From a virus, in IMG/VR virus record IMGVR_UViG_3300029319_000040, positions 1 to 60,885 of that record: DNA of 60,885 nt, one strand, 5' to 3'. Numbering within the stretch: position 1 is the first letter of the stretch; the number at the start of each line of letters is the position of its first letter. Below the pieces are notes generated by a model. It did not search any database, had not been told where the DNA came from, and saw only the letters and a list, made by a program, of their open reading frames with translations. The position numbers and the translations under genes are program-made. This document shows, piece after piece, positions 414 to 59,003 of the stretch.

Positions 414-420
414 TTGGGCC

Positions 421-44447: not shown

Positions 44448-44695
44448 TATTCACCACCACAAATCCTGTGTTCTTCTGGTAGATGCTTAACTCGCTTTTC
44501 ACGCATACCTCTCAAAATATCCTTAATGTTTTTTAGTGCCGTGTTATATCTTTTGACTGCTACACTATCACCCATCGGTACTAAACCATCTTCTGCCAAT
44601 TCTTGAGTGCTAGTATAATCATAGCCCTCTTCATCACCAATCAACATATTCAGTATTTCCCATTCAACGTGTTTCACACTCTTTGCTCTAATCAT
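44447..44695 (-). CDS. Hypothetical protein (82 aa)
   Basis: Helical protein (VEWEILNMLIGDEEGYD..., ALKNIKDILRGMREKR) that ends in CGGE, encoding the SD for RFC. It is the first gene after the P1 composite promoter. No family recognised. Confidence 0.6.
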   Translation of the reverse strand: MIRAKSVKHVEWEILNMLIGDEEGYDYTSTQELAEDGLVPMGDSVAVKRYNTALKNIKDILRGMREKRVKHLPEEHRICGGE

Positions 44696-44732
44696 TCATC
44701 ATTCCCCCTTACATATTGTACTCGACCAGTAA

Positions 44733-44766
44733 GGTTATAAACATTACGGTTAGCAGTAAGAGTGTG
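44733..44766 (-). promoter_or_regulatory. Composite promoter P1
   Basis: CACACTCTTACTGCTAA (44750-44766) followed by TTTATAACC (44733-44741). Drives 44447-44695 and RFC. The boxed motif directly precedes the coding end of 44772-45170. Confidence 0.7.
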
Positions 44767-44771
44767 TCGCC

Positions 44772-45170
44772 TCATGAGCGAATACAATGAAGACAAACTT
44801 GTGATTCTGGTGGGAAAACTCGGTTTCGGCCACATACTGAACACTTCTCCATCTTACTCTTTTCTTTTGGTGTTGCTACGCTAGGACTTCTTGTATATGT
44901 GATGTCGTCCTTACTGTGTATCAACTCCCTATTAATATCATATATCGCGTGTTTGGATTTAACTCCTACGGCGTTTTCTACCTTTTCACTCCCTACTATT
45001 ATGACCTGTGTATTTTTAGCAAGTAAGGAAGACAATGTGTGTGGCGAAGGAACTACTCTAACAGATTTAGTCTGTGTTAGATGTGTAGCCATCTTCTCCT
45101 TCGTCATCGGACCATGCTCCCAAAGCAGGTCTACAATCAACCTACGGATTCTTCGGTTGTTAGCACCCAT
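44772..45170 (-). CDS. Winged-helix + zinc-ribbon protein (132 aa)
   Basis: N-terminal winged-helix-like part (IVDLLWEHGPMTKEKMATHL), TLSSLLAKN and IYDIN, plus a C-terminal CSVC/CLHC zinc ribbon (about 109-130). One of five related proteins in the window. TTAATAAA about 28 bp upstream suggests leaderless transcription. Probably a viral transcription regulator. Confidence 0.7.
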   Translation of the reverse strand: MGANNRRIRRLIVDLLWEHGPMTKEKMATHLTQTKSVRVVPSPHTLSSLLAKNTQVIIVGSEKVENAVGVKSKHAIYDINRELIHSKDDITYTRSPSVATPKEKSKMEKCSVCGRNRVFPPESQVCLHCIRS

Positions 45171-45198
45171 TGACTTATGAATATATCAAACACCTTTA

Positions 45199-45486
45199 TT
45201 AATCATCCCCCAAAGAAAGCCACATCGATGACTCTACAAACGCTTCCGCGTGTCTATGCCTTCTATATTCTTGCCAATCCCACTGATTAGGTTTTAGAGC
45301 AGTAGTCTTGATTTCAGCCTCTACTGGCCTTTGGATATTTTCACTGTGGGTAAATTCTATATTGGCAATCTTGTTGATTATTTTGGCAAGCGAATTCATC
45401 ATATATTCTGCAATATTTGGACTTACAAACCAAACGAATACAACACCAATCAAAAGAGGTATGTCAAAAAGATAAGGGTTACTCAT
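45199..45486 (-). CDS. Membrane-anchored protein (95 aa)
   Basis: One TM segment (about 8-25, IPLLIGVVFVWFVSPNI) near the N-terminus, then a soluble C-terminal domain with Trp/Arg. ATG at 45486 overlaps the upstream stop (ATGA). Function unknown. Confidence 0.6.
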   Translation of the reverse strand: MSNPYLFDIPLLIGVVFVWFVSPNIAEYMMNSLAKIINKIANIEFTHSENIQRPVEAEIKTTALKPNQWDWQEYRRHRHAEAFVESSMWLSLGDD

Positions 45487-46157
45487 ACCCAACCCACCAC
45501 CTTTTCTTTTGTCTTCTTTAGATTCTTGACAGTATCTCCACCATCCCTAACTTCGTTACGAACCTCGGCACTACCATCTATGATTTCCCTCCAATACAAA
45601 TCATTAGAACGAAACGGCTTAGGAGGCAACTGCACCTTAGACTTCTTCTTAGGCCAAACCACACGTTTGCCACTAGGCTTGATAGCATAAGCAACAATCG
45701 CGTAAATGTATTTATCTGCTACCTCATACTTACATTCATTCAGTAGTCTATGTAAATTTATATCATCCGGCCTATTCGCCTCTACAAACGAGAGAAGTAG
45801 GGGAACGGGAACGGATTGTATTTGTTGGTACACAAAGTTTCTATCTCGGACTCTAAACACACATTGTATCGCTCTAATATGGTCTTCTTTATCTTTGTTA
45901 AGAGAATCATCTACTATGACAAAATCAGAACTCTTGTCCGTAAGTTTCGGAGGCTTTTCAGTAATTATTACAAGACGATAGGAGATTAGGTCGCGCCATT
46001 CTAAAGCATCTTTCTCCGTGAATTTATCTGAATGGAGAATGAGTGTAAGATTAGCCACGCTCGGAGAAGTATTGATTTCTTTGAACATCTCGACGTAGTT
46101 GCCTTCTTTGTACGGTCTTTCGTCGGCACTATAAATCACTACTCCCAATAAGGCCAC
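45483..46157 (-). CDS. Hypothetical protein, possible clamp-loader-like (224 aa)
   Basis: GTG start at 46157 overlapping the previous gene by 19 bases; a GTG at about 46139 is an alternative. Beta strand and helix alternation (LTLILHSDK, YRLVIITEK), then helices and a basic C-terminus (WPKKKSKVQ). No Walker motifs. A degenerate clamp-loader subunit is only a weak possibility. Confidence 0.45.
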   Translation of the reverse strand: MALLGVVIYSADERPYKEGNYVEMFKEINTSPSVANLTLILHSDKFTEKDALEWRDLISYRLVIITEKPPKLTDKSSDFVIVDDSLNKDKEDHIRAIQCVFRVRDRNFVYQQIQSVPVPLLLSFVEANRPDDINLHRLLNECKYEVADKYIYAIVAYAIKPSGKRVVWPKKKSKVQLPPKPFRSNDLYWREIIDGSAEVRNEVRDGGDTVKNLKKTKEKVVGWV

Positions 46158-46402
46158 CCCTCTTCTATGATGTGGTTTTTGATACGGTCCATTTGTTTCC
46201 TACTGAGATTCCAAACCCTCATGACTTCTGCACTACTGATAGAGTAATGACCACAATACCATTTCAATCCGTAGGTATCTAGTATAGGTATGAGTCCAGT
46301 CTCATCCATAGCAGAGAACAACTTAGGCAAGTCGTCCTTGTAGATAGCCCTATTCACCAACTGTCGTGCGTGTGTTCTCCATTTGATAGGCTCTCCAGTC
46401 AT
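46139..46402 (-). CDS. Small helical DNA-binding-like protein (87 aa)
   Basis: The ATG at 46402 overlaps the upstream TAA (TAATG). The C-terminal part (SSAEVMRVWNLSRKQMDRIK) reads as a helix-turn-helix. No family recognised. Confidence 0.6.
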   Translation of the reverse strand: MTGEPIKWRTHARQLVNRAIYKDDLPKLFSAMDETGLIPILDTYGLKWYCGHYSISSAEVMRVWNLSRKQMDRIKNHIIEEGWPYWE

Positions 46403-47028
46403 TACAAATCCTCCCATTCTACATCTATGACAGTATGTGTAGGTGCTTTCAAAGATGCCATATGCAACTCTATTTTGTCTAATAAGTCGGGATGAGGTTC
46501 AAGAGTATTTACTAAGTTACGCATGAAATCATTCATACGATTCTCGGCAAGAAGCAATTGAGAATCTACCCCAATCTCCTTCTTCAATTGACCTACAAGT
46601 TTCAAAGAGGTATTTGCTTGAGCAACTAACTTTGTAGCATCAGCGACCCACTCTGATGATATACCATCTTGTGCCTTTAGCACTTCTAACTCATCCAGCC
46701 ATCCGACCAAACGAAGGACAAGACCTTCTGCCATATCTAAGGTATTGATTGACTCTTCTCGCATCTTCTCTACATGGGATGCTTCTTCGGGGTCGAACTC
46801 TAAGTGATTATCCATATGATTGTCACAAGTACCTTCGGGCCAACCATATCTTACTTCTACTATATTAGGTCCGATTTCCCTATTGCTCAATTGAATTTCC
46901 AATTGTCTTTTACCAGCCAAATCACAAAAGGGACAAGGAGAAGATTTGAGAACCCATCTAAGAGTTTCAATGACTATCGGTTCACCCGACTGTGCTAGTC
47001 GTTCTTCTATCTCCCGTTGAGTTTTCAT
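46402..47028 (-). CDS. Zinc-containing helical protein (208 aa)
   Basis: An N-terminal CPFC with C67, H70 and H74 (about 32-75) may form a zinc site. The rest is helical and coiled (about 80-185). The helical part is reminiscent of terminase small subunits but is not decisive. ATG overlaps a 24-aa microprotein stop (ATGA). Confidence 0.55.
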   Translation of the reverse strand: MKTQREIEERLAQSGEPIVIETLRWVLKSSPCPFCDLAGKRQLEIQLSNREIGPNIVEVRYGWPEGTCDNHMDNHLEFDPEEASHVEKMREESINTLDMAEGLVLRLVGWLDELEVLKAQDGISSEWVADATKLVAQANTSLKLVGQLKKEIGVDSQLLLAENRMNDFMRNLVNTLEPHPDLLDKIELHMASLKAPTHTVIDVEWEDL

Positions 47029-47099
47029 TTAGTTCTCTCCCACTTACAGTGCAAACATTCCCTATGCTTTGAAATCATTCCACAACATTGACATCTCAT
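47025..47099 (-). CDS. Cys-rich microprotein (24 aa)
   Basis: CQCC (3-6) and CLHC (15-18): two Cys knuckles in 24 residues, enough for one zinc ion. ATG overlaps the stop of 47096-47362 (ATGA) and its own TGA overlaps the next ATG (ATGA). Tight overlaps at both ends support translation. Confidence 0.5.
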   Translation of the reverse strand: MRCQCCGMISKHRECLHCKWERTK

Positions 47100-47362
47100 T
47101 CTTCTTCCCCCCTTACAACATCCCAAATGTAAACAGTACCTTGCATACCACTTTTGTAAAATCTAGCATCCTTCTTTAGCCATCTCGCGGCCTGATTGAT
47201 AGTAACACCAGCCCTTGATGAACAAATAGATTTACCGTTCTTGAAAGTAGCGTAACGTAAAACTTGCCTCAAGGTGCAAGGTCCGTTATGCAATAAATAT
47301 TCGTACATAGCATCCACCGCCCAAGGCGTTGTTCTTTTAGCCCTTGAAGTTCTAGGACTCAT
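47096..47362 (-). CDS. Winged-helix-like protein (88 aa)
   Basis: AMYEYLLHNGPCTLRQVLRY, then AGVTINQAARWLKKDARF and VYIWDV, the pattern shared with four other proteins here. Likely DNA-binding. The C-terminal EEE encodes an SD. Confidence 0.65.
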   Translation of the reverse strand: MSPRTSRAKRTTPWAVDAMYEYLLHNGPCTLRQVLRYATFKNGKSICSSRAGVTINQAARWLKKDARFYKSGMQGTVYIWDVVRGEEE

Positions 47363-48693
47363 TCTTGTTCACCCCAAGGATTAGGCCCGCGCTCATTTGT
47401 AACAGGTCCGATACGACACATAACACCTCGTCGCCCTCTACCTTTCTTAGCCGAAGGCTCATACTCTCTATACCAAGGCTGCCCTTGTAGATTCTCAATA
47501 ATCCAACGCTTTGCTGATTGATAGTCACCAGCAGTAACCATACGAGAAACCTCTTTGATAAGTGTGGACTTTGTAATATCTTGCATCCAAAACGCATCTT
47601 TCATGAGTAGTGTGTCTGCATCCATAACTCTCCTTCTCATCATCAAGGACTTGGCTAGAATATCTTCTAGTCGCTCATCCATAGTTACAAGCAACGGTTC
47701 ACCCCCACGATAATTTGGACTCATCATGTGGTAGCCTATTGCTATACGCCTAAAAAGGTCTGCCTCAAACGAGCGTACCTTTGGTGATTCCAACCATGCT
47801 AAGATAGAGTCATCAAACAAAACACCGCTAGGAGGATTAGCCACCGCATCATCTAATCTAGTTCGTAACCATCCTTTGATTGCTATGGCCTTTTCTGCCA
47901 ACGATACCCTTTCCTCGGTAGTCATGTTAGATTGAGCGTGTTGCGCTCTTTTGAAAGCCAACTCTTTCTCATCACTCATCTCAATATCTATGATAAAGAA
48001 ACGACGGTCAAGACCAGAATCTAACTCAAATCTAGCAGGTTGCGTACCAGCCCAAACAGTGTAGCGAGTAGTGTACTGAACCCAACCAGCCTTCATACCT
48101 TTCTGCACTCTACCATTATCTAATGATGTAAGAAGTTGGTTTTTCATATCTAGGCTATGGTCTTTCTTGGAGGCATCAGACATAGATGAGAACTCTTCAA
48201 AACCAAGGAACCCACCGCATAGTTCTCTAGCGATAGGTCTGCCCATGATGTCGCCATCTTCATTCACTGAACCAAACATACCTGCTTCTGTTATACTGTT
48301 CGGTCCCATCATAGTTCTAAATCCTTCTCCCAAATCAGCGTTGAAATTATGAAGGAGTCCAGTGCCTTCTGCTAGGAACATAAGAATCAAAACCGATTTA
48401 CCAGAACCCTTTGCACCACGAAGCATGATGTGGATTCTTGTATCAGGTAGTTGCGACATCGGAGTGTAGAACGGTATGTTACTATGTCTCAAAGGACAAG
48501 AGGTAATAGTAAAATCATTCTCTGCATCTACTAATGGAGATTCGGGGTCGAAGTCACATCTACTGCATTTGTTTAGTGCATTGAAGATATGCGCGCCAAC
48601 AGAACAAACGAATATAGGTATCTTATCATCTACACCAACATAGTGATTTCTTTTAGCGAAATCCTTTACCTCTTCTATTATATCGAAACTCAT
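47359..48693 (-). CDS. MCM-like AAA+ helicase
   Basis: 444 aa. A short N-terminal domain with Cys at 30, 43, 46 and 66 (zinc) is followed by Walker A GAKGSGKS (93-100), Walker B-like FLGFEE (162-167), sensor VWAGTQ (about 213-218) and LDRRF (228-232) as Arg finger, in MCM order. A wing-like C-terminus follows. The MCM N-terminal region is shorter than in cellular MCMs. The likely replicative helicase. Confidence 0.8.
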   Translation of the reverse strand: MSFDIIEEVKDFAKRNHYVGVDDKIPIFVCSVGAHIFNALNKCSRCDFDPESPLVDAENDFTITSCPLRHSNIPFYTPMSQLPDTRIHIMLRGAKGSGKSVLILMFLAEGTGLLHNFNADLGEGFRTMMGPNSITEAGMFGSVNEDGDIMGRPIARELCGGFLGFEEFSSMSDASKKDHSLDMKNQLLTSLDNGRVQKGMKAGWVQYTTRYTVWAGTQPARFELDSGLDRRFFIIDIEMSDEKELAFKRAQHAQSNMTTEERVSLAEKAIAIKGWLRTRLDDAVANPPSGVLFDDSILAWLESPKVRSFEADLFRRIAIGYHMMSPNYRGGEPLLVTMDERLEDILAKSLMMRRRVMDADTLLMKDAFWMQDITKSTLIKEVSRMVTAGDYQSAKRWIIENLQGQPWYREYEPSAKKGRGRRGVMCRIGPVTNERGPNPWGEQE

Positions 48694-49490
48694 ATGTGAT
48701 AGCCCCCACTACTGTCATTCTCATCAAAGAAAGGAGGATTCAATCTGCCGTCGGTTTCAAAGGAGTTCAATATACCTCTGAACTCATTTACTGTTGTAGA
48801 ATCAGAATCAACCTTTAGTCCCAAACTATCTGAATAGAAATCTATTAGATGTTGAACGGCCACTTCATCTACGCCCATATTGTCACTCTTAACACAAATC
48901 AACATAGACAAATAACCATTACCACTATCTCTATCTGTTAGTTTAGCGTAAAGTTCACAGAATATCCAACAAGGGGTCATCAGTCCTAGTTCGCTATTCT
49001 GCACCCCACCTTTCATATCTTTGTCGTGGAAATCATACATAATCAAATCAGAGCCACCGATTGCCTTTTCACTATGGGCAACAGAAGTAAGCATGAATAA
49101 CTGCTCTACACCTAATTCCAAAAACAAATTGACTACATCTCTAGCCATAGGATAACACCACAACCAATTAGTAGTATCTGTTGGAGTATTAGGTTCAGGC
49201 CAATTCGTCAATCTAAGGAGGTAAATTCTATCCCCCTCTTCATCTTCTAATTCGTACACAAGCCAGCAAGGTTCTAACAAATCTGGAATAGCGTTGAAAG
49301 GCTCGACAGATTGATACCTTGAGTAAATCCTAGCGACGGGTTCTCTACCACCGATAACACTCATGGAAGATACCAAAGAAGCATGACCTGACTCTCCCTG
49401 CATAAATATAATCAGAGCAGAAGGTTTTGTTTCATGCGCCTTATCTGTCCATATAACATCAATATCTTCGTAACTCTCCATCTCAGGCAT
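48690..49490 (-). CDS. PAC2-family-like protein (266 aa)
   Basis: ALIIFMQGESGHASLVSSM, then GREPVARIYS, LVYELEDEEG...LLRLTNWP and VVNLFLELGVEQLFML follow the order of motifs in PAC2 (proteasome-assembly-chaperone-like) proteins of archaea. The acidic C-terminal part differs. ATG at 49490 is preferred over GTG at 49502. It sits beside the helicase, and a link to proteasome or protein turnover would be new for a virus; the assignment is from pattern memory. Confidence 0.45.
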   Translation of the reverse strand: MPEMESYEDIDVIWTDKAHETKPSALIIFMQGESGHASLVSSMSVIGGREPVARIYSRYQSVEPFNAIPDLLEPCWLVYELEDEEGDRIYLLRLTNWPEPNTPTDTTNWLWCYPMARDVVNLFLELGVEQLFMLTSVAHSEKAIGGSDLIMYDFHDKDMKGGVQNSELGLMTPCWIFCELYAKLTDRDSGNGYLSMLICVKSDNMGVDEVAVQHLIDFYSDSLGLKVDSDSTTVNEFRGILNSFETDGRLNPPFFDENDSSGGYHI

Positions 49491-49491
49491 A

Positions 49492-49965
49492 TCAATCACC
49501 ACCGTCTTTACCCAAAACCTGTTCGGATATTAATAACTGTATAGAATCTGCCATACTCTTAGGTAATTGTTCTAAGGTAGATACTCGGTGTTTAGTCGAG
49601 TCTTCATACCATACTGCCATTTCTTCAATGCTTACTGCTTGATATACAGGTATAGGTGTAGTGTAACGAGAATAAGTTTTCATCGTACTACCTTCTGGTA
49701 TTGTTCTTCTGCTAGATTTTTCTTCTCCTATCTTACGAAAGAATTTATTCTTAGACAGTATTTGAGTTACTTGATTAGTAGTGTAAGACCCTTGGTTTTT
49801 TCCATAAACATAAGTCTCCCCTTTGTTAGTCTTTCTAGTTTTAGTCGATTCTAGTTCTTTCAAGTGTTCTATAATCTCATGAGTATTAGCACTCCCCACT
49901 TCATTTAAGAAGTTCCAAATTTTCATTTTCAACTTACTGTGTCTACATCTTCTTCTATTTGCCAT
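49492..49965 (-). CDS. Winged-helix-like protein (157 aa)
   Basis: KIWNFLNEVGSANTHEIIEHL and TTNQVTQILSKNKFFRKIG match the shared family pattern; the middle is basic, the C-terminus is acidic and ends GKDGGD. ATG at 49965 has GGAGAGTGA upstream; the in-frame GTG at 49974 is less likely. Confidence 0.65.
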   Translation of the reverse strand: MANRRRCRHSKLKMKIWNFLNEVGSANTHEIIEHLKELESTKTRKTNKGETYVYGKNQGSYTTNQVTQILSKNKFFRKIGEEKSSRRTIPEGSTMKTYSRYTTPIPVYQAVSIEEMAVWYEDSTKHRVSTLEQLPKSMADSIQLLISEQVLGKDGGD

Positions 49966-49974
49966 TCTTTTCAC

Positions 49975-50141
49975 TCTCCTAAATTAATTCAGAAATAATT
50001 AATCGCTACACCAATCCCCGATTCTACTAATTCTTTTTTTGTTTCATAGATGTTTCAGAGAATAATCCTCTTTTTCTAAACACACTAAAGACGAATAAAA
50101 AGAATTCGTAAAAACGGTGGGCTGGTAGCCATTATTTATTT
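49975..50141. other. Intergenic region
   Basis: Contains TTAATTCAGAAATAATTAA and T-rich stretches. It has TATA-like sequences but no copy of the composite motif and no gene. Possibly a promoter for the 49492-49965 gene. Confidence 0.4.
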
Positions 50142-51011
50142 CTAGTCACCTCCGAATAAATCAAAATAATTAATCGCATCGCGAGCATCTAATCTTTCAA
50201 GAATAAACACATCACTCATCTTTAGTCTACGAGTAGCACCATTTATTCTTGATTCATTTATTTTTTCTTTCTTACGCTCTGTAAATATCAAAGCACTACC
50301 TAATATACAGGCATCTTCCATTGTGATAAAACAACCCATGAATGTCTTCATATCTACTGAACAAAACGTACCTTCTAAGTTGATTGTTGGCACTGGCTGA
50401 ACGAATAGATTAGACCAATCAAGACCTACATTTACTCTAGCAACGAAAGATAAAACAGGTTTCTTAGATTTAAAATATTGTCTTTGTGTGATAAGAACTT
50501 CATGATTGCCCTCTTTGTTGGGTATAGTTGCTTTGATACATATTCTCATACCTACTGATTCCTTTTCTTCATGAGGATATGGATTGGTAGTTATTGTAGC
50601 GTCGTAGCCTCTTTCTTGTATGGTCTGTATCAAACCTATCAACCATGCGTAATCTTCAAACTTCTCTTGAGTCACCGCTTTTATTTCTGTACTCACTGGC
50701 CCTCTCCATAATGTGACAAAACAACCCTCTGAACTTTGTACCAATTCAGTCAATAGTTCTGAAAAAGGAGTTTGTAAATCCATCATACTATCATAGACAT
50801 CACGCCGATACGGTGGCGGAGATGGATGACATAAAGCAACAACCAAATCATACACTGTTCTTCTATCAGTGATATGGCCCATGAGTCTATCGTCTTGATG
50901 CAACAAGGATAAGTCACAAGACATAAGATTGCCCAATCTACCAGTAGTAAAATACTGAACCTTGATGTCCCTAGTATCGATTACTAAAGGTGCTAGATTA
51001 TCTGTGTTCAT
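50142..51011 (-). CDS. Hypothetical protein (289 aa)
   Basis: Mixed alpha/beta protein with beta strands around VQYFTTGRLGNL, FVTLWRGPV, and ILGSALIFTERKKEK. No diagnostic motif recognised. Overlaps nothing; 2 bases from its upstream neighbour. Ends LFGGD. Confidence 0.55.
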   Translation of the reverse strand: MNTDNLAPLVIDTRDIKVQYFTTGRLGNLMSCDLSLLHQDDRLMGHITDRRTVYDLVVALCHPSPPPYRRDVYDSMMDLQTPFSELLTELVQSSEGCFVTLWRGPVSTEIKAVTQEKFEDYAWLIGLIQTIQERGYDATITTNPYPHEEKESVGMRICIKATIPNKEGNHEVLITQRQYFKSKKPVLSFVARVNVGLDWSNLFVQPVPTINLEGTFCSVDMKTFMGCFITMEDACILGSALIFTERKKEKINESRINGATRRLKMSDVFILERLDARDAINYFDLFGGD

Positions 51012-51013
51012 TC

Positions 51014-51304
51014 TTACAACCCCCTTTGCATGGCTTTGTACTCTTCTTTTGTGTAATGGTCTTCAACTTTAGGAACAAACATTTTGATAATGTAAATCCA
51101 ATGACGTACAAGTTCTAATTCCTTCGGATGCTCTTGTAAGTTTTGAGCCTTCTCTTGTAATACTCTTAGAACTCCTTTACGAAAAACACCACTTCTAATG
51201 ATTCCTGTATAACTAACAACCCAATCAAGTTCGCCACCAAAACCATTGTGTTTGTAGAATTCACTCGTCATTTTATCTGCTAATACTTCATACCATTCAC
51301 TCAT
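51014..51304 (-). CDS. Hypothetical protein (96 aa)
   Basis: Helical, mixed-charge protein (LADKMTSEFYKHNGFGGE...). No motifs. Downstream of the zinc protein at 51307 with only two bases between. Confidence 0.6.
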   Translation of the reverse strand: MSEWYEVLADKMTSEFYKHNGFGGELDWVVSYTGIIRSGVFRKGVLRVLQEKAQNLQEHPKELELVRHWIYIIKMFVPKVEDHYTKEEYKAMQRGL

Positions 51305-51306
51305 TC

Positions 51307-51615
51307 TTACAACCCCCTTTCCTTCTTGATGTTTCTTAGAACTCTAGCAAATGCCTTCCACTTCTTGTTGTATTCTCTTGTAAATTGTGAATTGTTAGGC
51401 GGCTTGACTCCGACCCACGGAGCGATACCTAAGATAACATTCTCAAGCATCTTTATTTGATGTTGGTCATAATCATTAATCACCGATTCAAAAACACTAT
51501 CCTCCATTTTACAGTTAGGACATAATACATACCCTTCTTCATCGGGTAATGTGTCCTCTTTAGATGTAGCCTCAAATTTCTCAAAGCAACCTTCACAAGT
51601 CATTGTTATGCCCAT
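51307..51615 (-). CDS. Zinc-ribbon protein (102 aa)
   Basis: CEGC (about 7-10) and CPNC (about 31-34) form a ribbon, followed by helices. ATG at 51615 overlaps the preceding TGA (TGATG), which decides the start. Confidence 0.65.
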   Translation of the reverse strand: MGITMTCEGCFEKFEATSKEDTLPDEEGYVLCPNCKMEDSVFESVINDYDQHQIKMLENVILGIAPWVGVKPPNNSQFTREYNKKWKAFARVLRNIKKERGL

Positions 51616-51929
51616 CAGATAGTCACCCCCAACCATTCTTCTGCCTCTTGTAAATCTTTGAGTCTGTAAGTCAATACTAGATTAGATTGCTTGTACACTG
51701 ACCCCTTTTCTATACCATGCCAGCCTCTCATTAGATTACCAATGGTTCTAACACTAGGTAGATTGAAACCGATAGAATGAATCTGTCTTTTTGAATTGTC
51801 CCTTCTTTGTGCAATTATACCAATTATTTCATCTGCTGAAATAAATTCAGTACCGTTGTCTGCTTCTTCTTTCAAGGCTCTAAGTATAGCCTTCCTCACT
51901 CTAATATGTTTTCTTTGTCGCTTACGCAT
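51615..51929 (-). CDS. Winged-helix-like protein (104 aa)
   Basis: KAILRALKEEADNGTEFISA, then LPSVRTIGNLMRGWHG and LVLTYRLKD. The same three-part pattern as the other family members, with a more basic N-terminus. It follows composite promoter P2. Confidence 0.6.
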   Translation of the reverse strand: MRKRQRKHIRVRKAILRALKEEADNGTEFISADEIIGIIAQRRDNSKRQIHSIGFNLPSVRTIGNLMRGWHGIEKGSVYKQSNLVLTYRLKDLQEAEEWLGVTI

Positions 51930-51965
51930 CTCTCATTCCTCCTTGTTAAATATACATTCGTGGTC

Positions 51966-52001
51966 AAGTATATAGTACTTGTCATTAGCAGTAAGAGTGT
52001 G
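51966..52001 (-). promoter_or_regulatory. Composite promoter P2
   Basis: CACACTCTTACTGCTAA (51985-52001), 10 bp, TATATACTT (51968-51974), then a leader with AACAAGGAGG. The upstream gene ends at 52002, with its TGA abutting the motif. Drives 51615-51929 and the genes after it. Confidence 0.75.
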
Positions 52002-52130
52002 TCACTCTTCCTCATCGGGCCAACCGCAATAATCGCACCAAGCAGTAGGAGTATCATCGTAATCTCCTTCTATAACAAGAGTGCAATCGCACCTAGGACA
52101 ACTTCTATTTCTAGCATATCCCCAACCCAT
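52002..52130 (-). CDS. Zinc-ribbon microprotein (42 aa)
   Basis: CPRC (11-14) with C16 and CDYC (32-35) form a ribbon; ends PDEEE, then TGA next to promoter P2. ATG at 52130 is 9 bases from GGAGG; an ATG at 52139 is too close. Confidence 0.6.
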   Translation of the reverse strand: MGWGYARNRSCPRCDCTLVIEGDYDDTPTAWCDYCGWPDEEE

Positions 52131-52131
52131 T

Positions 52132-52401
52132 TCATTCATCCTCCATTATTAGTTTCAACATCACTAAGTAACCAATCAAGTCATCTATGATGTCCATATC
52201 ACTCTCAATACTATCGTTACCTCTAGCCAATCGTGATAGTTTGTCATCGATGCGTACTCTAACTCCGGCTTGTGAATCTAACTTTGAGAACAAACGAATA
52301 GGATTGTTCACACTGTCTCCATACTGCTGATTCTTAGCAATCAACAATTGACCTATGCGAGTTAGTAAATTAGTTACTTTAGCAGCGAAAGGGTCACTCA
52401 T
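52132..52401 (-). CDS. Nucleotide-modification-associated (DUF1599-like) protein (89 aa)
   Basis: KNQQYGDSVNNPIRLF, then RVRIDDKLSRLARG and DDLIGYLVMLKL match small phage proteins of the Nmad1/DUF1599 type, helical and MazG-like in pattern. ATG at 52401 overlaps the preceding TGA (ATGA). May act on nucleotides; the match is at pattern level. Confidence 0.55.
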   Translation of the reverse strand: MSDPFAAKVTNLLTRIGQLLIAKNQQYGDSVNNPIRLFSKLDSQAGVRVRIDDKLSRLARGNDSIESDMDIIDDLIGYLVMLKLIMEDE

Positions 52402-52898
52402 GCTATCGCCCCCTTCCACCATGAAGGGGCAGGTCGTCCCTTCTGCCACTTAGCAAACGTCTTGGAATGATAGTATGCTCGGTATGCTTTGACTGCATCT
52501 GCATCTTTGAACTCATCCGGCATAGCCTGAGCGAAGGGAGTCAATGGGCCTTCGGGAATCAAGTGAGCCATGTTAGATAGTATCTCGATACCATCAGCAC
52601 AAAAATGAGTCTTGTCGAATCTCTTGGTGTATTCTTCTGCTAATGCGGCGGCATGATAACAAGCCCAAATGAAATTGTCTCTTGAGTCACCACAAAAACG
52701 GGTCGCGGGATGATTGTGGTAGCCACCCTTGAGAGGCGTACCTTTCTTAGTAAGAGGCATCTGCTCTGGTGTAGCACCATGTCTGATGACGGCACTACCT
52801 AGTTGCTGGTAAAGTTCTACAACCATCTTAGGTACGTGCTTGTCGCAATACATTTTGGCCGATACAATCGGGTCTTCATCTAGTACAAATATGTTCAT
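52398..52898 (-). CDS. Conserved phage protein with HP motif (166 aa)
   Basis: MNIFVLDEDPIVSAKMYCDK, then HNHPATRF...SRDNFIWACYHA and EYTKRF resemble a protein frequent in marine phage genomes, of unknown function. His/Cys spacing may bind metal. The ATG at 52898 is preferred for its SD AAGGAGG 9 bases upstream. Confidence 0.6.
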   Translation of the reverse strand: MNIFVLDEDPIVSAKMYCDKHVPKMVVELYQQLGSAVIRHGATPEQMPLTKKGTPLKGGYHNHPATRFCGDSRDNFIWACYHAAALAEEYTKRFDKTHFCADGIEILSNMAHLIPEGPLTPFAQAMPDEFKDADAVKAYRAYYHSKTFAKWQKGRPAPSWWKGAIA

Positions 52899-52899
52899 C

Positions 52900-53277
52900 T
52901 CATTCATCCTCCTTGGTGCGGTCAGAGGTGGCTAGTGCCTCCCCCGACAACGATTCTGCTACTTGACTGTTGGATATAAATGTTTCTGTATTTACTATAT
53001 CCCAAACTTTTCTAGTAACTTTACCTTCTCCAGTGTAACTAAAAACTCTCACTGTTTCATTAGAATGAAATCTAGGGTCACGCTTTAGAACAGTGGTCAA
53101 TGATATAGGTGAACACGGAGAAATCTTTGGCATAGAACCATCTACATTTCTAACTGAGGTGTATAACTCATGAGCAGTAGCCGGTCCATAATCACGAATG
53201 TAATCATAACATCGGTCACGATAATTACTGTACTTGATAGCAAAGCCACCATACTTTTTTTCTGCTCTACCCATCAT
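52900..53277 (-). CDS. Winged-helix-like protein (125 aa)
   Basis: YDYIRDYGPATAHELYTSVR, then ISLTTVLKRDPRFHSN and TRKVWDIV show the shared pattern most clearly. ATG overlaps the preceding TGA (ATGA). Acidic tail KEDE is SD-encoded. Confidence 0.65.
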   Translation of the reverse strand: MMGRAEKKYGGFAIKYSNYRDRCYDYIRDYGPATAHELYTSVRNVDGSMPKISPCSPISLTTVLKRDPRFHSNETVRVFSYTGEGKVTRKVWDIVNTETFISNSQVAESLSGEALATSDRTKEDE

Positions 53278-53519
53278 TCTTCCTCCAGCATGGTTTTGTA
53301 CTCTTCTTCTCCTTCATTTTCCATAGCCACAATCAATTGTTTCATTTCATAAACTCTTTTGGTTCTACTCCAAAGTTTGTAGGCATTATCGCTCATCTTT
53401 TCTAATTCCTCAAGAGTATATCTATTCAAAATTCTGCTGGGCATCCTTTCTTTCATATAATAAACTAAGTCGTCTATCCATTCCCATTCAATCGGTTTCA
53501 TTCCTAACATATCATTCAC
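53274..53519 (-). CDS. Hypothetical helical protein (81 aa)
   Basis: Follows composite promoter P3. Helical, with WIDDLVYYMKERMPS... and a highly acidic C-terminus (EGEEEYKTMLEEE). No family recognised. Confidence 0.6.
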   Translation of the reverse strand: MNDMLGMKPIEWEWIDDLVYYMKERMPSRILNRYTLEELEKMSDNAYKLWSRTKRVYEMKQLIVAMENEGEEEYKTMLEEE

Positions 53520-53820
53520 TCTCCTTGGTATTTATCCATTCTTGGTAATGCTTATAGTCTTTTTCATCAACAGTAAGAGTGTGTACATCTCGATAGTTTG
53601 CTCTGTGAACCCCGATGTCATATTCTACATCTACTGAATACAAAAACTCCCTGATTGTTTTATCGTCTATCTTATTACTTTGTAAAAGTTCATCAAGAAC
53701 ACAAACTATAACCCTTCTATCTGCATCGCTACCGTTCATAGCAGTATCAAGTATCTTAGAGAACTTGTTGAATCTAAGACTTTTCATCTTGATTAAGTGT
53801 GCATACTCTACTTCATCCAT
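53512..53820 (-). CDS. Hypothetical protein with promoter-encoded segment (102 aa)
   Basis: The segment VHTLTVDEKDYKHY (about 79-92) is encoded by promoter P3 and is followed by INTKESE. The first 75 residues are helical. Reads like several other genes whose 3' ends carry a promoter. Confidence 0.6.
   Translation of the reverse strand: MDEVEYAHLIKMKSLRFNKFSKILDTAMNGSDADRRVIVCVLDELLQSNKIDDKTIREFLYSVDVEYDIGVHRANYRDVHTLTVDEKDYKHYQEWINTKESE
53550..53583 (-). promoter_or_regulatory. Composite promoter P3
   Basis: CACACTCTTACTGTTGA (53567-53583), then GACTATAAGC (53550-53559), then a leader with GAATGGATAAATACCAAGG. Lies inside the coding end of 53512-53820 and serves 53274-53519. Confidence 0.75.
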
Positions 53821-54024
53821 TCAGTCCATCTCCTGTACTATCTCTTCAATCCACTCTAACTGCTTATCTACATCAGCATGATATATTCTCTGATAGAACT
53901 CAAAGAAGTCATGTACAGTATTCTCTCCGAACTCATGAATCATGTATTCGATGTTTTCTCGGTCCATCTTTGTTACATCAACTGCAACATGAACTGCAAG
54001 TGCTTTCATTTCGTGATAACTCAT
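53821..54024 (-). CDS. Hypothetical helical protein (67 aa)
   Basis: ATG at 54024 overlaps the preceding TGA. Helical, with VHVAVDVTKMDRENIEYMI and an acidic C-terminus. No family recognised. Confidence 0.6.
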   Translation of the reverse strand: MSYHEMKALAVHVAVDVTKMDRENIEYMIHEFGENTVHDFFEFYQRIYHADVDKQLEWIEEIVQEMD

Positions 54025-54155
54025 TCTATCGCCTCCCATGTGAGGTCAAGTCCTTGCTCGACTATCGCCTTCGCTATAAGATATTGCTCATAAGTTATAC
54101 TCTTTCCAGAACGATGTAAGTTCAATCCGTAAAACACAGTTTCGCTCATACTCAT
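54021..54155 (-). CDS. Small hypothetical protein (44 aa)
   Basis: ATG at 54155, TGA overlapping the next ATG (ATGA). Helical, with a Lys/Ser-rich middle. The ATG at 54149 is an alternative start. Confidence 0.5.
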   Translation of the reverse strand: MSMSETVFYGLNLHRSGKSITYEQYLIAKAIVEQGLDLTWEAIE

Positions 54156-54156
54156 T

Positions 54157-54696
54157 CTACCACAACCATCCTAAGAATCTTCTGATTAGACCAACCTTTC
54201 TATGTAGGAGTGAATGATGTTCAGCAGTAATTGAGTCAAAACAGGCTTGTAGTTCTTCTAGTTGATTTTCTAGTGCTTCGACTCTATCTTCTAAGTCATC
54301 GTACTCTAAACCTTCTTTGATAATATCATAATCAATGTGGTCATCAATATCAAAATTATTCCACGCGGACTCGATAATACAATCTTCGATGTTGTATCTG
54401 ATGGTATCATAGTCTAAGTGGTCATTGACTTGTTCAAGAATGTCATCCTCAATGTTATATCTAATATCATTAGCATCGATGTAATCAATAACATCAATGT
54501 AATCGGACAAATCCATGTTACCCATAAAGTTCTCAATGATAGGCTCTACCTCGGTTTCTAAATCACATTCAATATACTCCCCGAAATTAGTATTCTCAAG
54601 ATGGCAGTCTACTGCTTTCTGAACCCATTCGGTATTAACCTCATCTATCACTCCTTCAATTATCGTTCTTTCGTTTATGTCTATTTCTATCTTCAT
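54157..54696 (-). CDS. Acidic protein with internal repeats and coiled coil (179 aa)
   Basis: Imperfect repeats of a D/I/Y-rich unit with IRYNIED occur twice (about 72-110), with DYIDVIDYID-like turns. A coiled coil (DRVEALENQLEELQACF) precedes a basic and hydrophobic C-terminus (FLGWLW). Strongly acidic, so perhaps a DNA-mimic or scaffold; that is inference. Confidence 0.6.
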   Translation of the reverse strand: MKIEIDINERTIIEGVIDEVNTEWVQKAVDCHLENTNFGEYIECDLETEVEPIIENFMGNMDLSDYIDVIDYIDANDIRYNIEDDILEQVNDHLDYDTIRYNIEDCIIESAWNNFDIDDHIDYDIIKEGLEYDDLEDRVEALENQLEELQACFDSITAEHHSLLHRKVGLIRRFLGWLW

Positions 54697-54708
54697 TTCA
54701 ATCACTCC

Positions 54709-54936
54709 TTATTCTTCCTCACTACTGCTCGGACAATTAGAACTACCAGTCTCAGGTATATAACTGTTGTCGTCAGCAGTAAGAGTGTGTTCGTCTTCTT
54801 TCTTGTTCAGGTGGATATGTGGAATCATTACATCTCTAATACATCTCATACAGACATAATCTCCACCAAAGACTAATGTTAGGACATTACCTTCGCCACA
54901 AAGACAACATGAATGATATTGTAATCCAGTTTCCAT
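54709..54936 (-). CDS. Zinc-ribbon protein with promoter-encoded tail (75 aa)
   Basis: CCLCGE (about 9-12) and CMRC (about 28-31), then HLNKKEDEHTLTADDNSYIP, whose last part is read from composite promoter P4. ATG at 54936 overlaps the preceding TAA. Ends SSEEE. Confidence 0.6.
   Translation of the reverse strand: METGLQYHSCCLCGEGNVLTLVFGGDYVCMRCIRDVMIPHIHLNKKEDEHTLTADDNSYIPETGSSNCPSSSEEE
54755..54789 (-). promoter_or_regulatory. Composite promoter P4
   Basis: CACACTCTTACTGCTGA (54773-54789), then GTTATATACC (54755-54764). Entirely within the coding region of the gene ending at 54709; drives 54157-54696. Confidence 0.75.
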
Positions 54937-55322
54937 TATTCTTCCTCCCCCCAATTATTTTCAGCGTTGTAATTATAATCCTTCTTGTGGCAGAACCAAA
55001 CCGTACAACCTGTATTGTGTATTTTAGCGTAACAAACAATACTCGACCTGTAATTGAAATAATCCTGATATTGTCCTAAAGTGTTACATAGATTGTCTGT
55101 GAAAGATTTTAGCGAACCAAACTTTATGTGTGGAGAAGGTATATCCAGTGAATTATAAGCACCAAATATAGCCCTAAAGTATTTTACATCACTAGGATGA
55201 CTAGCATCACGTTTAGCCTTCCGTACCAATTTCATGACATCATCCGCATTATCAAACGGACCTTGCCAATCGCTGTCTTCTACATCATCCCAATCTAATG
55301 TGTATGTTATTTTCTGTTTCAT
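54936..55322 (-). CDS. Hypothetical protein (128 aa)
   Basis: Alpha/beta, Trp/Asp-rich N-terminus (LDWDDVEDSDWQGPF). The C-terminus (NWGEEE) encodes the SD of the next gene. No family recognised. Confidence 0.55.
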   Translation of the reverse strand: MKQKITYTLDWDDVEDSDWQGPFDNADDVMKLVRKAKRDASHPSDVKYFRAIFGAYNSLDIPSPHIKFGSLKSFTDNLCNTLGQYQDYFNYRSSIVCYAKIHNTGCTVWFCHKKDYNYNAENNWGEEE

Positions 55323-55687
55323 TATTCTTCACTCTCCCTGTTTGTTCTCATTTCCCATTTCTTCTTAGGTGTAATCAATTTTCTAAAGTAGCATCCTTCA
55401 TGAGTATCTATGTGGCCCAATGAATCAAGCCACCGTACGATTTCTACATCTAAGTTACTTGTGCCGTCATAGTCGTATAGCAATCCGTTCTCATTAAGAT
55501 ATAGTCCTCCATCACCATAGAATTCATCTCCACTTGTTTCCTTATCATAGATTTCAAATCCACCTCGGCCCTTTTCTTCATTGACCCATGCTTTAATTTT
55601 CATGGTTGTTTCTACTCTAGGAGTAGCACCCCATGAGCCTTCATAACAAACAAAGCAAACTACTTCTGTATCTAAACGCTCGGTCAT
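55322..55687 (-). CDS. Hypothetical protein (121 aa)
   Basis: Beta-rich, with AWVNEEKGRGGFEIYDKET and a C-terminal ESEE. ATG and upstream stop overlap (ATGA). Function unknown. Confidence 0.55.
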   Translation of the reverse strand: MTERLDTEVVCFVCYEGSWGATPRVETTMKIKAWVNEEKGRGGFEIYDKETSGDEFYGDGGLYLNENGLLYDYDGTSNLDVEIVRWLDSLGHIDTHEGCYFRKLITPKKKWEMRTNRESEE

Positions 55688-55938
55688 TCTTGTTCACCTT
55701 CCTTGAAAACTGCTTCAACATCGGGGGCATATTCTACAACCCATTCTTTGTATTTTCTTAGACTTTTGATTTCCTCTAATAACTCTAGGTTGTGTTCTTT
55801 GTGGATTCGTAAGTGTTGTTCAAGATTGCATATATCATTCTCATACCTTGTCATTTCCAAATGATAAATCTTTACAACATCATTAACGGCATCTTTTATT
55901 CTCTTCGCGCTTCTATCTATTTCTTCTACGTTTCTCAT
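55684..55938 (-). CDS. Coiled-coil protein (84 aa)
   Basis: Helical with heptads (ICNLEQHLRIHKEHNLELLE) and an acidic C-terminus EGEQE. ATG overlaps the preceding TGA. Function unknown. Confidence 0.6.
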   Translation of the reverse strand: MRNVEEIDRSAKRIKDAVNDVVKIYHLEMTRYENDICNLEQHLRIHKEHNLELLEEIKSLRKYKEWVVEYAPDVEAVFKEGEQE

Positions 55939-56135
55939 TCTATCATCTCCCTTATTTTAATCATTTGGACTCTATTGTGAATATGAGTTTCCTCTTTCAT
56001 TTCATCCCAATATCCAGAGGACAAAATGTTCACAATCCAATCAGCCATTTCACCGATTGAAGCATTAACTACTAAGTCCTTGTAAATATCAATCCATTCT
56101 TCATGCTTGTTTATTATCTCTTGTACTCTTGTCAT
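55935..56135 (-). CDS. Hypothetical helical protein (66 aa)
   Basis: Follows composite promoter P5. Helical, with HEEWIDIYKDLVVNASIGEM. No family recognised. Confidence 0.6.
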   Translation of the reverse strand: MTRVQEIINKHEEWIDIYKDLVVNASIGEMADWIVNILSSGYWDEMKEETHIHNRVQMIKIREMIE

Positions 56136-56170
56136 TCAATCATCTCCTTCTTATCTAACGATTCTCCCTC

Positions 56171-56206
56171 AAGTATATGAATCTTCTGATTAGCAGTAAG
56201 AGTGTG
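56171..56206 (-). promoter_or_regulatory. Composite promoter P5
   Basis: CACACTCTTACTGCTAA (56190-56206), then TTCATATACTTGAG (56171-56181), then a leader with AGAATCGTTAGATAAGAAGG. Just downstream of the ArdC-like gene; drives 55935-56135. Confidence 0.75.
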
Positions 56207-56213
56207 CTAATCA

Positions 56214-57251
56214 TTATTCTTCCTCCTTCTTATCTTCTTCTTTGAAACCGAACACATCAGGCATCAGTAGTTCACAAGCCCTTTGAGCCTTTGAAGCAGA
56301 ACTGTTGATGAACTTAGCACCACCATCCTTAGCCTCTTTGATAGCCTTTAGCCAACTTTGAAGATATGATGCTGAATTTTCTAGTCCTTCCTCAAGAGCC
56401 TTCCCTTCGATTCCAGCACCCATACAGAGCATAGCCGCACCCATCTCAGCAACCAGTTCTTCTCTAGCATAATCCTCGCCTCCAAACATTCCACTCAAGT
56501 CCCTATCTAATCTTGAAGCATGACCAGTCCAATGAACTGCCTCATGGAAAGCAGTACCAACTCGACCTTCTGCCGTCTTGAATAAATCTCTGTTGGGGAG
56601 ATGGATATAATCTTGACTAGGTGAATAGTATGCTCTACCCTGCTTTGATTCTCTAAAGTCGATTTCCAAATCCTCTACCATTTTATCGAATATCCTTTCA
56701 GCATCAATGATAGCCATTTCCTTTTTCTTCTTCTCTTCCTTCTTGGTCATCTTAGGCTTCTCAATCGGTGGCAGACCTGTTTCTGCTCTGTTGAATACTA
56801 AGAAATACTTAGGATGGAATGAGTGTCTAACTCTTTCTTCTCCAGTCACCTCATCTTCTTCAATCCACCTAGACTTCTTCCAATAGACAACGGGATGAGA
56901 CTTAGCACCTTTCTGAACTCCAAAGTATTCGTCGGAACCGATAGATTTAGCGTGTTGTTCTCCCTTCTTCTTCCAGATATTGTAAGTACCCCACTGATTA
57001 TCGACATAATTATTTTCATCCCGAACTATACTTAGATACCAGACATTAGTGCCTCGATATGATTTACCAGTAGATGCTGAAACAGGTAGGTCTGTACCAA
57101 ACATTCCGAATGATTGACCACCCTTCCAAGGTTTGTTCCAAGGTCGGACTCCCTTCTCCAGATTTTCGATTATCTTTGATGCTACTTTCTTATGAACATC
57201 TAAAGCCTTCTGTCTTGCATTTCCTTTCTTCTTTGTTTTCGTTCTAGCCAT
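56214..57251 (-). CDS. ArdC-like antirestriction protein (345 aa)
   Basis: N-terminal ArdC-type domain (LDVHKKVASKIIENLEKGVR, then PWNKPWKGG and SYRGTNVWYL). The C-terminal zincin-like domain has FHEAVHWTGH (about 231-240) and YAREELVAEMGAA, the HExxH and distal Glu. The family binds single-stranded DNA and protects incoming DNA from restriction. Basic N-terminus; Lys/Glu-rich insert at about 165-180. Follows composite promoter P6, so probably early. Confidence 0.85.
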   Translation of the reverse strand: MARTKTKKKGNARQKALDVHKKVASKIIENLEKGVRPWNKPWKGGQSFGMFGTDLPVSASTGKSYRGTNVWYLSIVRDENNYVDNQWGTYNIWKKKGEQHAKSIGSDEYFGVQKGAKSHPVVYWKKSRWIEEDEVTGEERVRHSFHPKYFLVFNRAETGLPPIEKPKMTKKEEKKKKEMAIIDAERIFDKMVEDLEIDFRESKQGRAYYSPSQDYIHLPNRDLFKTAEGRVGTAFHEAVHWTGHASRLDRDLSGMFGGEDYAREELVAEMGAAMLCMGAGIEGKALEEGLENSASYLQSWLKAIKEAKDGGAKFINSSASKAQRACELLMPDVFGFKEEDKKEEE

Positions 57252-57293
57252 ATTAGTTGCCTCCTTCTGTTGTTATTTTACCATTCGTGGTAT

Positions 57294-57328
57294 CGTTTAT
57301 AGTCTCTTCGGTCTGCACTAAGAGTGTG
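57294..57328 (-). promoter_or_regulatory. Composite promoter P6
   Basis: CACACTCTTAGTGCAGA (57312-57328), then GACTATAAACG (57294-57304), then a leader with GGTAAAATAACAACAG and an SD. Begins two bases after the stop of 57330-57587 and drives the ArdC-like gene. Confidence 0.75.
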
Positions 57329-57329
57329 T

Positions 57330-57587
57330 TCATTCTACCACCTGCCCTCTCTTGATAATTTCTGACTGTGTGATTGTGAAATCTCCCAATCTATCAGAGT
57401 GTCCACTAACTTGATAACCCTGAGATAACATACGCTCTGCTGATTTTCTCCAATATCCTTTTCCATCATCGGAAAAAGAATAACCCGGAATGAACTTTCT
57501 ATCTTGAAATACATAGTCTAAAGCCCCCTTCCTAGTAGTGAAAACCAAAGCACCATAATTGGCATCAGTTACAACATAAACACTCAT
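57330..57587 (-). CDS. Hypothetical protein (85 aa)
   Basis: Beta/alpha protein with VVTDANYGALVFTTRKGALD and a C-terminus leading into promoter P6. ATG overlaps the stop of a microprotein. Function unknown. Confidence 0.6.
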   Translation of the reverse strand: MSVYVVTDANYGALVFTTRKGALDYVFQDRKFIPGYSFSDDGKGYWRKSAERMLSQGYQVSGHSDRLGDFTITQSEIIKRGQVVE

Positions 57588-57658
57588 GCTAACACCTCTT
57601 CACCATCTTCAACAAGTTCTTGAATAATCTTAAGCATTTCATCAGATATATCACTCAT
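57584..57658 (-). CDS. Acidic microprotein (24 aa)
   Basis: MSDISDEMLKIIQELVEDGE... a single amphipathic helix. Its ATG overlaps the upstream stop and its stop overlaps the next ATG (both ATGA), the pattern of translated coupled genes. Confidence 0.45.
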   Translation of the reverse strand: MSDISDEMLKIIQELVEDGEEVLA

Positions 57659-57918
57659 TCTTCCTCGCCTCCAAACTTAATCCTTATGTGTTCTTCAACA
57701 GATATATTTTCATCTCCATGAACCATCATCATGTATTCTCTGAAACCGGATGGGTCATAAAATGCCATTTCATTACAATGTGCTATTTCATCAAACCTCT
57801 GTGCCTTTATCGTTCTACAATCTGCACAAATATGTCTTTCCTCGGCAGTAGTCGGCATCTTCTCATAGAACAATATTGGTTGTCCACATTCTGTACAAGT
57901 ATATGGTGTTCTTCTCAT
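57655..57918 (-). CDS. Zinc-ribbon protein (87 aa)
   Basis: CTEC (8-11) and CADC (31-34), then helices, and C-terminal GGEEE. A DnaK-suppressor-like or ribbon type is possible from the Cys spacing. Function unknown. Confidence 0.65.
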   Translation of the reverse strand: MRRTPYTCTECGQPILFYEKMPTTAEERHICADCRTIKAQRFDEIAHCNEMAFYDPSGFREYMMMVHGDENISVEEHIRIKFGGEEE

Positions 57919-57919
57919 C

Positions 57920-58147
57920 TTAGTTGCCTCCTGTGACTTGGATTATCTCTCCTTCAAACGGATTGTCAATCTTCTCATCTCTACCCTTTCCAGTTATCAA
58001 GTTGAAGTTACAAAGCATCCAGACAATTCCAGCAGAAGTATAACCTTGCTTGGCAAGTTTGATTATCTTCTCTGTCATTATCTTGTCTGCTTCATCCTCA
58101 ATTTCATTTTTCATTTGTTCTAGTTCTTTCATTGTTATCTCCATCAT
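57920..58147 (-). CDS. Hypothetical helical protein (75 aa)
   Basis: Follows composite promoter P7. Helical coiled N-terminus (KELEQMKNEIEDEADKIM). ATG overlaps the preceding TGA (ATGA). Confidence 0.6.
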   Translation of the reverse strand: MMEITMKELEQMKNEIEDEADKIMTEKIIKLAKQGYTSAGIVWMLCNFNLITGKGRDEKIDNPFEGEIIQVTGGN

Positions 58148-58464
58148 ACCAACTCCTTCTTGTTATTTACCGATTCTCGCTCAACTATATTAATATTGTC
58201 ATCAGCAGTAAAAGTGTGTTCCGAATATCTCCTTTCGATTTTCTGAATCAATCTCTTTCTTGAATCTGATATTTCTAAGTCTGCACCATTCCAACCATTG
58301 ATTCCTTTGCATTCTCCATATGAAACCCACATTGTATATCCACCAAACAATCCATCAGAATACCAACCTCTATTTTGTAGTAGATGTCTTTTTTCTTGAC
58401 TGTCTGTGTAAATCCACAGATTTCCTTTGCCATATCTATTTTTACCTGCATTTTCCAAACTCAT
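58144..58464 (-). CDS. Hypothetical protein with promoter-encoded tail (106 aa)
   Basis: LWIYTDSQEKRHLLQNRGWY in the N-terminal half, and RYSEHTFTADDNINIVE in the tail, read from promoter P7. ATG at 58464 overlaps the preceding TGA. Function unknown. Confidence 0.6.
   Translation of the reverse strand: MSLENAGKNRYGKGNLWIYTDSQEKRHLLQNRGWYSDGLFGGYTMWVSYGECKGINGWNGADLEISDSRKRLIQKIERRYSEHTFTADDNINIVERESVNNKKELV
58185..58218 (-). promoter_or_regulatory. Composite promoter P7
   Basis: CACACTTTTACTGCTGA (58202-58218), one change from consensus, then AATATTAATATAG (58185-58197), then a leader with GAATCGGTAAATAACAAG and an SD. Within the coding end of 58144-58464; drives 57920-58147. Confidence 0.7.
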
Positions 58465-58643
58465 TCTGATTGCCTCCTTGCTACATCTGAAACTATACAT
58501 CTGATTTGAGCATCATCAAACTCGCCTCTTTGGTGCATTTTATCTATTGTCCGAATCAAGTCGTAAGCCACATCTCTATCTCCTTCAAGACATTCTGTTA
58601 GTATTCTAGCCAATCTATTATAGTTCATTTCATCATTATCCAT
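58461..58643 (-). CDS. Hypothetical helical protein (60 aa)
   Basis: Helical, with ARILTECLEGDRDVAYDLI. ATG 58643 directly follows the TAA of the preceding gene. No family recognised. Confidence 0.6.
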   Translation of the reverse strand: MDNDEMNYNRLARILTECLEGDRDVAYDLIRTIDKMHQRGEFDDAQIRCIVSDVARRQSE

Positions 58644-58931
58644 TTATTCATCCCCCTTACATTTACATTCATTTTCCAATCCTAATCCGAAGACATCAAC
58701 AATATGTCTCGGTGGATTAGGTGCATTTGGAATACAGTTGAAGCAACAGAATATACTTGGGTTTTCATCTACTAATGTTCTGATAAAACCTCCTAATTCC
58801 TCTATTCTGCTTTCATATTTTTTAGTCCATTCCGACCCATTTTCAATGATTTGATTTCTCTGTTCATAGGCCGATTCTAGTCGTTCTTCTAGTCTTTGTA
58901 TTTCTATTTCTAATTCTTTCTTGGTTGGCAT
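58644..58931 (-). CDS. Coiled-coil protein with Cys tail (95 aa)
   Basis: Heptad-rich N-terminus (ELEIEIQRLEERLESAYEQR), then CCFNC and a CKCKGDE end. Follows composite promoter P8. Function unknown. Confidence 0.6.
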   Translation of the reverse strand: MPTKKELEIEIQRLEERLESAYEQRNQIIENGSEWTKKYESRIEELGGFIRTLVDENPSIFCCFNCIPNAPNPPRHIVDVFGLGLENECKCKGDE

Positions 58932-58968
58932 CTCGCATTCCTCCTTGTTATTTTACAATTATTCCCTA

Positions 58969-59003
58969 AGTACTTAAACCTTCCTATCAGCACTAAGAGT
59001 GTG
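58969..59003 (-). promoter_or_regulatory. Composite promoter P8
   Basis: CACACTCTTAGTGCTGA (58987-59003), then GGTTTAAGTACTT (58968-58979), then a leader with GTAAAATAACAAGGAGG. Overlaps the coding end of 58974-59498; drives 58644-58931. Confidence 0.7.

Follow-up and report, generated by a model that had tools for sequence, protein, structure and literature searches.

The stretch of DNA analysed here (hereafter the window, or the window virus in pairwise comparisons) comprises positions 1–60,885 of the IMG/VR record IMGVR_UViG_3300029319_000040. A 99-bp direct terminal repeat with one mismatch, at 1–99 and 60787–60885, indicates that the genome is complete, circular or terminally redundant, with a length of about 60.8 kb. 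The window is the genome of an archaeal-type tailed virus, with genes for a family B DNA polymerase, an RFC-like clamp loader, a terminase, a portal and a minor tail protein of the tape-measure type. No tRNA was found and no lysogeny genes were seen in the window, the named phage records queried with a 444-aa core protein contained no relative, and a search of bacterial and archaeal genomes with a viral protein yielded no provirus. The archaeal-type replication genes and the TATA promoters, together with the host suggested in the original prediction, suggest a marine archaeon of Poseidoniales type as a putative host. A close relative (L044) lacks about 12 kb of early genes (window 44448–56203) and carries a few hundred base pairs of other genes in their place (L044 11052–11397). 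The 270-aa core gene at 48690–49502 shares only 39–42% identity with relatives G004, G006 and G009, while its neighbours share 96–97% and 81–82%. A weak similarity links positions 52398–52907 to the pyrimidine dimer DNA glycosylase family, which is widespread in viral contigs.

The window contains eight copies of a 17-bp motif, CACACTCTTASTGCTRA, all on the minus strand and each with at most one mismatch, as the original prediction had claimed. In dinucleotide shuffles, the mean number of matches at up to three mismatches is 0.28 and the largest 2, against the eight copies observed. The motif stands as first described, and its consensus is better written as CACACTCTTASTGCTRA than in the initial wording, because three copies end in TAA. 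One further match (1828–1844), with three mismatches, lies inside a coding stretch common to a relative and was excluded as a copy.

Each copy is part of a composite promoter on the minus strand. In all eight, 19–21 bp separate the first base of the CTTAC/CTTAG core from the start of a TATA-like box, and the start codon lies 64–84 bp past the motif. Specifically, the promoter at 58932–59003 consists of the motif (58987–59003), a TATA-like TTTAAG and a leader, and precedes the gene at 58644–58931. The promoter at 58148–58218 (motif 58202–58218) precedes the gene at 57920–58147, and that at 57252–57328 (motif 57312–57328) lies directly in front of a minus-strand gene for an ArdC-type antirestriction protein (ArdcN + MPTase-PolyVal; 56214–57251). 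Further along are the promoters at 56136–56206 (motif 56190–56206; gene 55935–56135), 54706–54789 (motif 54773–54789; gene 54157–54705) and 53520–53583 (motif 53567–53583; gene 53274–53519). The last two, at 51930–52001 (motif 51985–52001) and 44696–44766 (motif 44750–44766), serve a winged-helix gene (51615–51929) and the gene at 44447–44695, which heads an RFC-to-PolB replication gene run. A predicted common leader, GAATnG..TAAATAACAAGGAGG, recurs up to the Shine-Dalgarno sequence in about six of the eight, and the leaders of the copies at 44766 and 54789 differ.

The constant distance to the TATA box bears out the earlier placement of the motif upstream of it and marks the motif as a promoter-linked cis-element. 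The accompanying suggestion of a B-recognition-type (BRE) contact is not supported, because a BRE is purine-rich and abuts the TATA box, whereas the motif ends about 8–10 bp before it and is pyrimidine-rich in its 5′ part. Nor is the motif a protein-coding repeat: upstream reading frames end at offsets of −7 to +81 or more from it, and both the frames and the stop positions differ between copies. Apart from the ArdC-type gene, the winged-helix gene and the head of the replication run, the genes behind the motif are small and of unassigned function, and none of the structural genes of the window has a copy in front. From this gene content, the genes under the motif are probably early genes.

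To place the motif in a wider context, we gathered relatives by PolB and the 444-aa core protein and sought further promoter motifs in two ways, one anchored on the TATA box and the other based on expectation maximisation, with the reverse strand and shuffled sequence as controls. Relative G001 carries the motif of the window (dialect A). In G006, G009 and G004, several core proteins are 91–97% identical to those of the window, yet another sequence, CCTTACGAACCCGCYAYC (dialect B), stands at the same promoter position, in 11, 5 and 2 copies, respectively, and G008 carries ACCTTACGCTGCGCCAN (dialect C) at that position in 11–12 copies. Among other relatives, GACGCTTGCGA occurs at many loci of more distant viruses, TGCTTGCGTSGTC in L086/L096/L089/L091, TTGCTTTCGTTAACTGCG in L104/L105, and GTGTGTCTTAGTCGG in L123/L128. 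Pairs of motif and TATA box, counted on the forward strand, the reverse strand and with a reversed-pattern control, number 10/0/0 for dialect A, 18/0/0 for B, 12/0/0 for C and 59/0/0 for F, and the D, E and T patterns have small backgrounds in these counts. Within one virus the dialects are unmixed by this measure, apart from single stray matches and an overlap of D with E, which are both variants of one motif; occurrence on the other strand is almost nil. A CTT(A/G/T)C-like core is common to most dialects and lies 19–27 bp from the TATA box, with three outliers at 14 bp. Sequence comparison supports the view of the motif as a virus-specific regulatory element placed upstream of the BRE.

In an exact-motif search of all viral contigs, dialect A was found in only two true relatives (L011 and L012). 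The remaining matches stand outside any such promoter setting and resemble chance or coding occurrences. Repeats obtained by whole-genome counting in distant relatives are mostly coding or palindromic and have no link to a TATA box.

A search of 244 Poseidoniales genomes with up to one mismatch returned 5 matches to the motif against about 13 for the reversed control, thus no enrichment, and dialect F, the commonest among the relatives, gave 0 matches together with its TATA box; on these searches a host element was rejected. It is likewise very unlikely that a host regulator binds the motif and that the dialects mirror different hosts. Such an explanation would account for the CTTRC-like core of most dialects, as sites of one conserved factor might have, but it is at odds with the missing enrichment in the 244 genomes and with the fact that the dialect differs, alongside a viral gene, between viruses with 97% core-protein identity. 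The original prediction had left the dedicated factor as virus-encoded or host; the first half is favoured, with the product of 51615–51929 as the candidate, and the second is very unlikely.

The dialects are exchanged in place at orthologous promoters. The motif in front of the winged-helix gene is A, B or C by lineage, and the site of 53274–53519, which is A in the window, is B in the orthologs of G006 and G009. Similarly, the site of 54157–54705 is A in the window and B in the G006 ortholog, while at 44447–44695 the site is kept, as A in the window versus C in a relative's ortholog. At the position of the promoter 44696–44766, dialect B and C motifs stand in relatives.

Alignment of the window with G006 defines the exchanged block. 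DNA of 91% identity stops at 52001/27854, the first motif base in each genome, and similarity restarts at 51615/27508, the end of the winged-helix ORF. These breakpoints indicate that the exchanged block is exactly the motif, the promoter and the winged-helix gene, a minus-strand A/B module at 51616–52001 with conserved DNA on both sides. In addition, homology between the window and G001 starts 2 bp before the motif of the promoter at 58932–59003 and exactly at the motif of that at 58148–58218. The genes upstream of both edges are unrelated to those of the window, indicating that genes travel with their promoters. Independent switches of the A/B type are few. The two homology edges would also be expected if the repeats were recombination or gene-cassette junctions of mobile promoter–gene modules, with no regulator site in them, an explanation that we consider highly improbable: the sharp TATA spacing and the in-place dialect switching need a sequence-reading factor, and breaks at promoter edges are expected anyway if a gene moves with its promoter.

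The best candidate for that trans-factor, on the evidence of its upstream motif, predicted fold and divergence, is the hypervariable 104-aa protein encoded at 51615–51929 on the minus strand. The AlphaFold2 model is a winged helix with a helical bundle and a beta-hairpin wing (pLDDT 85). Foldseek matches it to PadR/LmrR-like and archaeal regulators with probability up to 1.00, every E value being above 0.001. A PDB sequence search with the winged-helix profile gave weak matches only, and the protein has no Pfam or PHROG assignment. An iterated profile search drifted into winged-helix paralogs; candidates were instead scored in competition with four paralog families, which gave orthologs at nearly 50 loci. 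Scanning further for winged-helix relatives of the A/B/C type added nothing to the known contigs, and a word-count test at the winged-helix promoters was abandoned because of noise.

The window protein shares 34–36% identity with its dialect B orthologs, compared with about 70–95% for the gene neighbours. When virus pairs are ranked by a core protein, the window and G006 have 97% core identity against 29% for the winged helix, and the window and G004, the same A/B contrast, have 96% against 30%, whereas the other listed pairs with at least 94% core identity retain at least 69% in the winged-helix protein. As the family is fast-evolving everywhere, divergence alone is weak evidence. The recognition-helix segments largely cluster by dialect.

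The motif lies directly before the winged-helix gene in dialects A, B and C. At F loci, an F site lies upstream of 15 of 18 winged-helix orthologs versus 42 of 516 other genes (p about 3e-13, a value that ignores shared ancestry and for which sites were called by the script's TATA list). The three misses are L087, L092 and L093; by eye, L087 and L092 show an (A/G)ACGCTTGCGAGTCAG..CTTATAC context outside the TATA list of the pattern. In a hold-out of 78 newly fetched loci, at least two F sites were found in L266 only (6 forward, 0 reverse). L266 also encodes a winged-helix ortholog whose recognition helix is F-like, although a motif cannot be seen immediately in front of this gene. In L110/L111 the winged-helix protein is about 60% identical to that of L108 and has a near-identical recognition helix, yet the F sites are lost, while at one or more orthologous promoters the TATA region has stayed the same. 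No dialect is detectable at several of the loci that encode an ortholog.

Another viral protein, either a winged-helix paralog (for example 44447–44695 or 52900–53277) or the product of a dialect-specific early gene, is an unlikely cognate factor. In its favour, there are several winged-helix-like paralogs, and each dialect has many early genes of its own; however, 44772–45170 and 47096–47362 are well conserved between A and B, 44447–44695 has no match in the B records, and only the 51615–51929 family both spans the dialects and regularly follows the motif. A virus-encoded regulator is the best reading of the motif.

On balance, we lean towards a model in which the 17-bp motif is the site of the virus-encoded winged-helix protein 51615–51929, which activates early promoters, with site and protein changing together in each lineage. 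In this model, the protein would bind the motif just upstream of the BRE and TATA box, at an early promoter set that would include its own promoter and the head of the replication gene run. The bound regulator would most likely recruit TBP/TFB and turn these promoters on together, and the motif before 51615–51929 would provide positive autoregulation. Co-change of site and protein per virus lineage would create private promoter codes. Binding of the motif by 51615–51929 is suggested by the genomic pattern set out above, and activation is its presumed mode of action.

The position of the motif upstream of the BRE favours activation, which by analogy we place somewhat ahead of repression. In archaea, a site upstream of the BRE is typical of activators, and one over the promoter or further downstream is typical of repressors (PMC5512572); TrmBL1 acts in both ways, as an activator at upstream sites and as a repressor at downstream ones (PMC4706686). 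The main rival, that 51615–51929 is an Aca-like autorepressor, is possible but less likely. Strong early promoters would then fire at once on infection and later be shut together, as the protein on the motif blocked TFB at the BRE. This has an archaeal precedent in Aca8, a winged-helix gene behind a virus-specific early motif that is thought to repress it (PMC11065993). It also agrees with an ArdC-type antirestriction gene under the motif, and the motif ends near enough to the TATA box for a winged-helix footprint to reach the BRE. Against this, every dialect has its site on the upstream side of the BRE and not over the BRE, TATA box or start site, whereas archaeal repressors usually occlude these elements and the upstream sites of TrmBL1 and EarA activate (PMC4706686, PMC5512572). 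Furthermore, the promoter heading the replication gene run also has the motif.

Viruses of Sulfolobales have virus-specific regulatory sequences of early genes; one of the genes so preceded is the winged-helix gene aca8, which has been read as repression, and the class is marked by transcription immediately after infection and by control of anti-defence genes (Bhoobalan-Chitty et al. 2024, PMC11065993). As in those viruses, one consensus beside a TATA promoter precedes many genes of one virus and differs virus by virus, and a winged-helix gene itself lies behind the shared sequence, the likeness to Aca8 being one of fold and gene position (PMC11065993). Of the genes under the sequence in the window, one is of the ArdC antirestriction type, one heads the replication run and most others are unassigned. 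Unlike the Sulfolobales arrangement (PMC11065993), the window has a separate site upstream of the BRE at fixed spacing, and the dialects occur in tailed marine viruses and switch between near-identical viruses by exchange of motif, promoter and regulator. The main text of PMC11065993 does not mention Poseidoniales, magroviruses or Caudoviricetes, and the magrovirus paper (PMC10160649) contains no promoter analysis. The site immediately upstream of the BRE is shared with EarA, TrmBL1, TFB-RF1 and Ptr2 (PMC5512572, PMC4706686, PMC5569661); these are host factors, whereas the candidate here is virus-encoded and lineage-private. In kind, the system is thus known from Sulfolobales viruses; what appears new in the sequences analysed here is the separate pre-BRE element at fixed spacing, the family-wide dialects, the coordinated switching and the co-exchanged candidate regulator. 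The stoperators of cluster A mycobacteriophages are also dispersed asymmetric sites in one orientation, with subgroup variants that track the cognate regulator, and are the repressor sites of temperate phages. Unlike stoperators, the sites here all accompany a TATA promoter, in a genome where genes for lysogeny were not seen.

The motif system looks like a swappable gene-control code. More speculatively, early genes throughout this marine archaeal tailed-virus group might be under private codes, each read by its own winged-helix activator, with whole regulons re-coded in near-identical genomes through motif–promoter–regulator exchange. If private codes are real, they could act as regulatory immunity or exclusion among co-infecting relatives. 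How viruses of uncultured marine archaea regulate their genes has hardly been studied, and a repeated, aligned site set with a named candidate regulator makes the proposal directly testable in vitro. Near-identical viruses in which a regulator and all its sites change together amount to a natural experiment, and the dialects offer a sequence handle for picking out early, possibly anti-defence, genes in such genomes.

Other repeat families accompany the promoter motifs. A second lineage-specific repeat is AAAGTACAAAAAAA in the window (1–500, 1562 and 60584–60885) and GGTTACAAAAACA in G006, G008 and G009 (G008 42.0–49.5 kb; G006 34.9–36.9 kb). This family has about 10–24 copies, most of them grouped where the early region begins with non-coding DNA, and a few copies in G006 and G008 directly abut the promoter motif; the repeats are possibly origin iterons or the sites of another regulator. 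In two viruses that also bear F sites, GTTTATAACCGTAATC is repeated with its conserved part 3′ of the TATA box (L101 14284, 15195 and 18287; L103 7533, 8443 and 11531), possibly forming a second promoter class. In L106, ATTTGTAGATA occurs more than 20 times, in either orientation, in a cluster at 243–2895 near one end of the locus.
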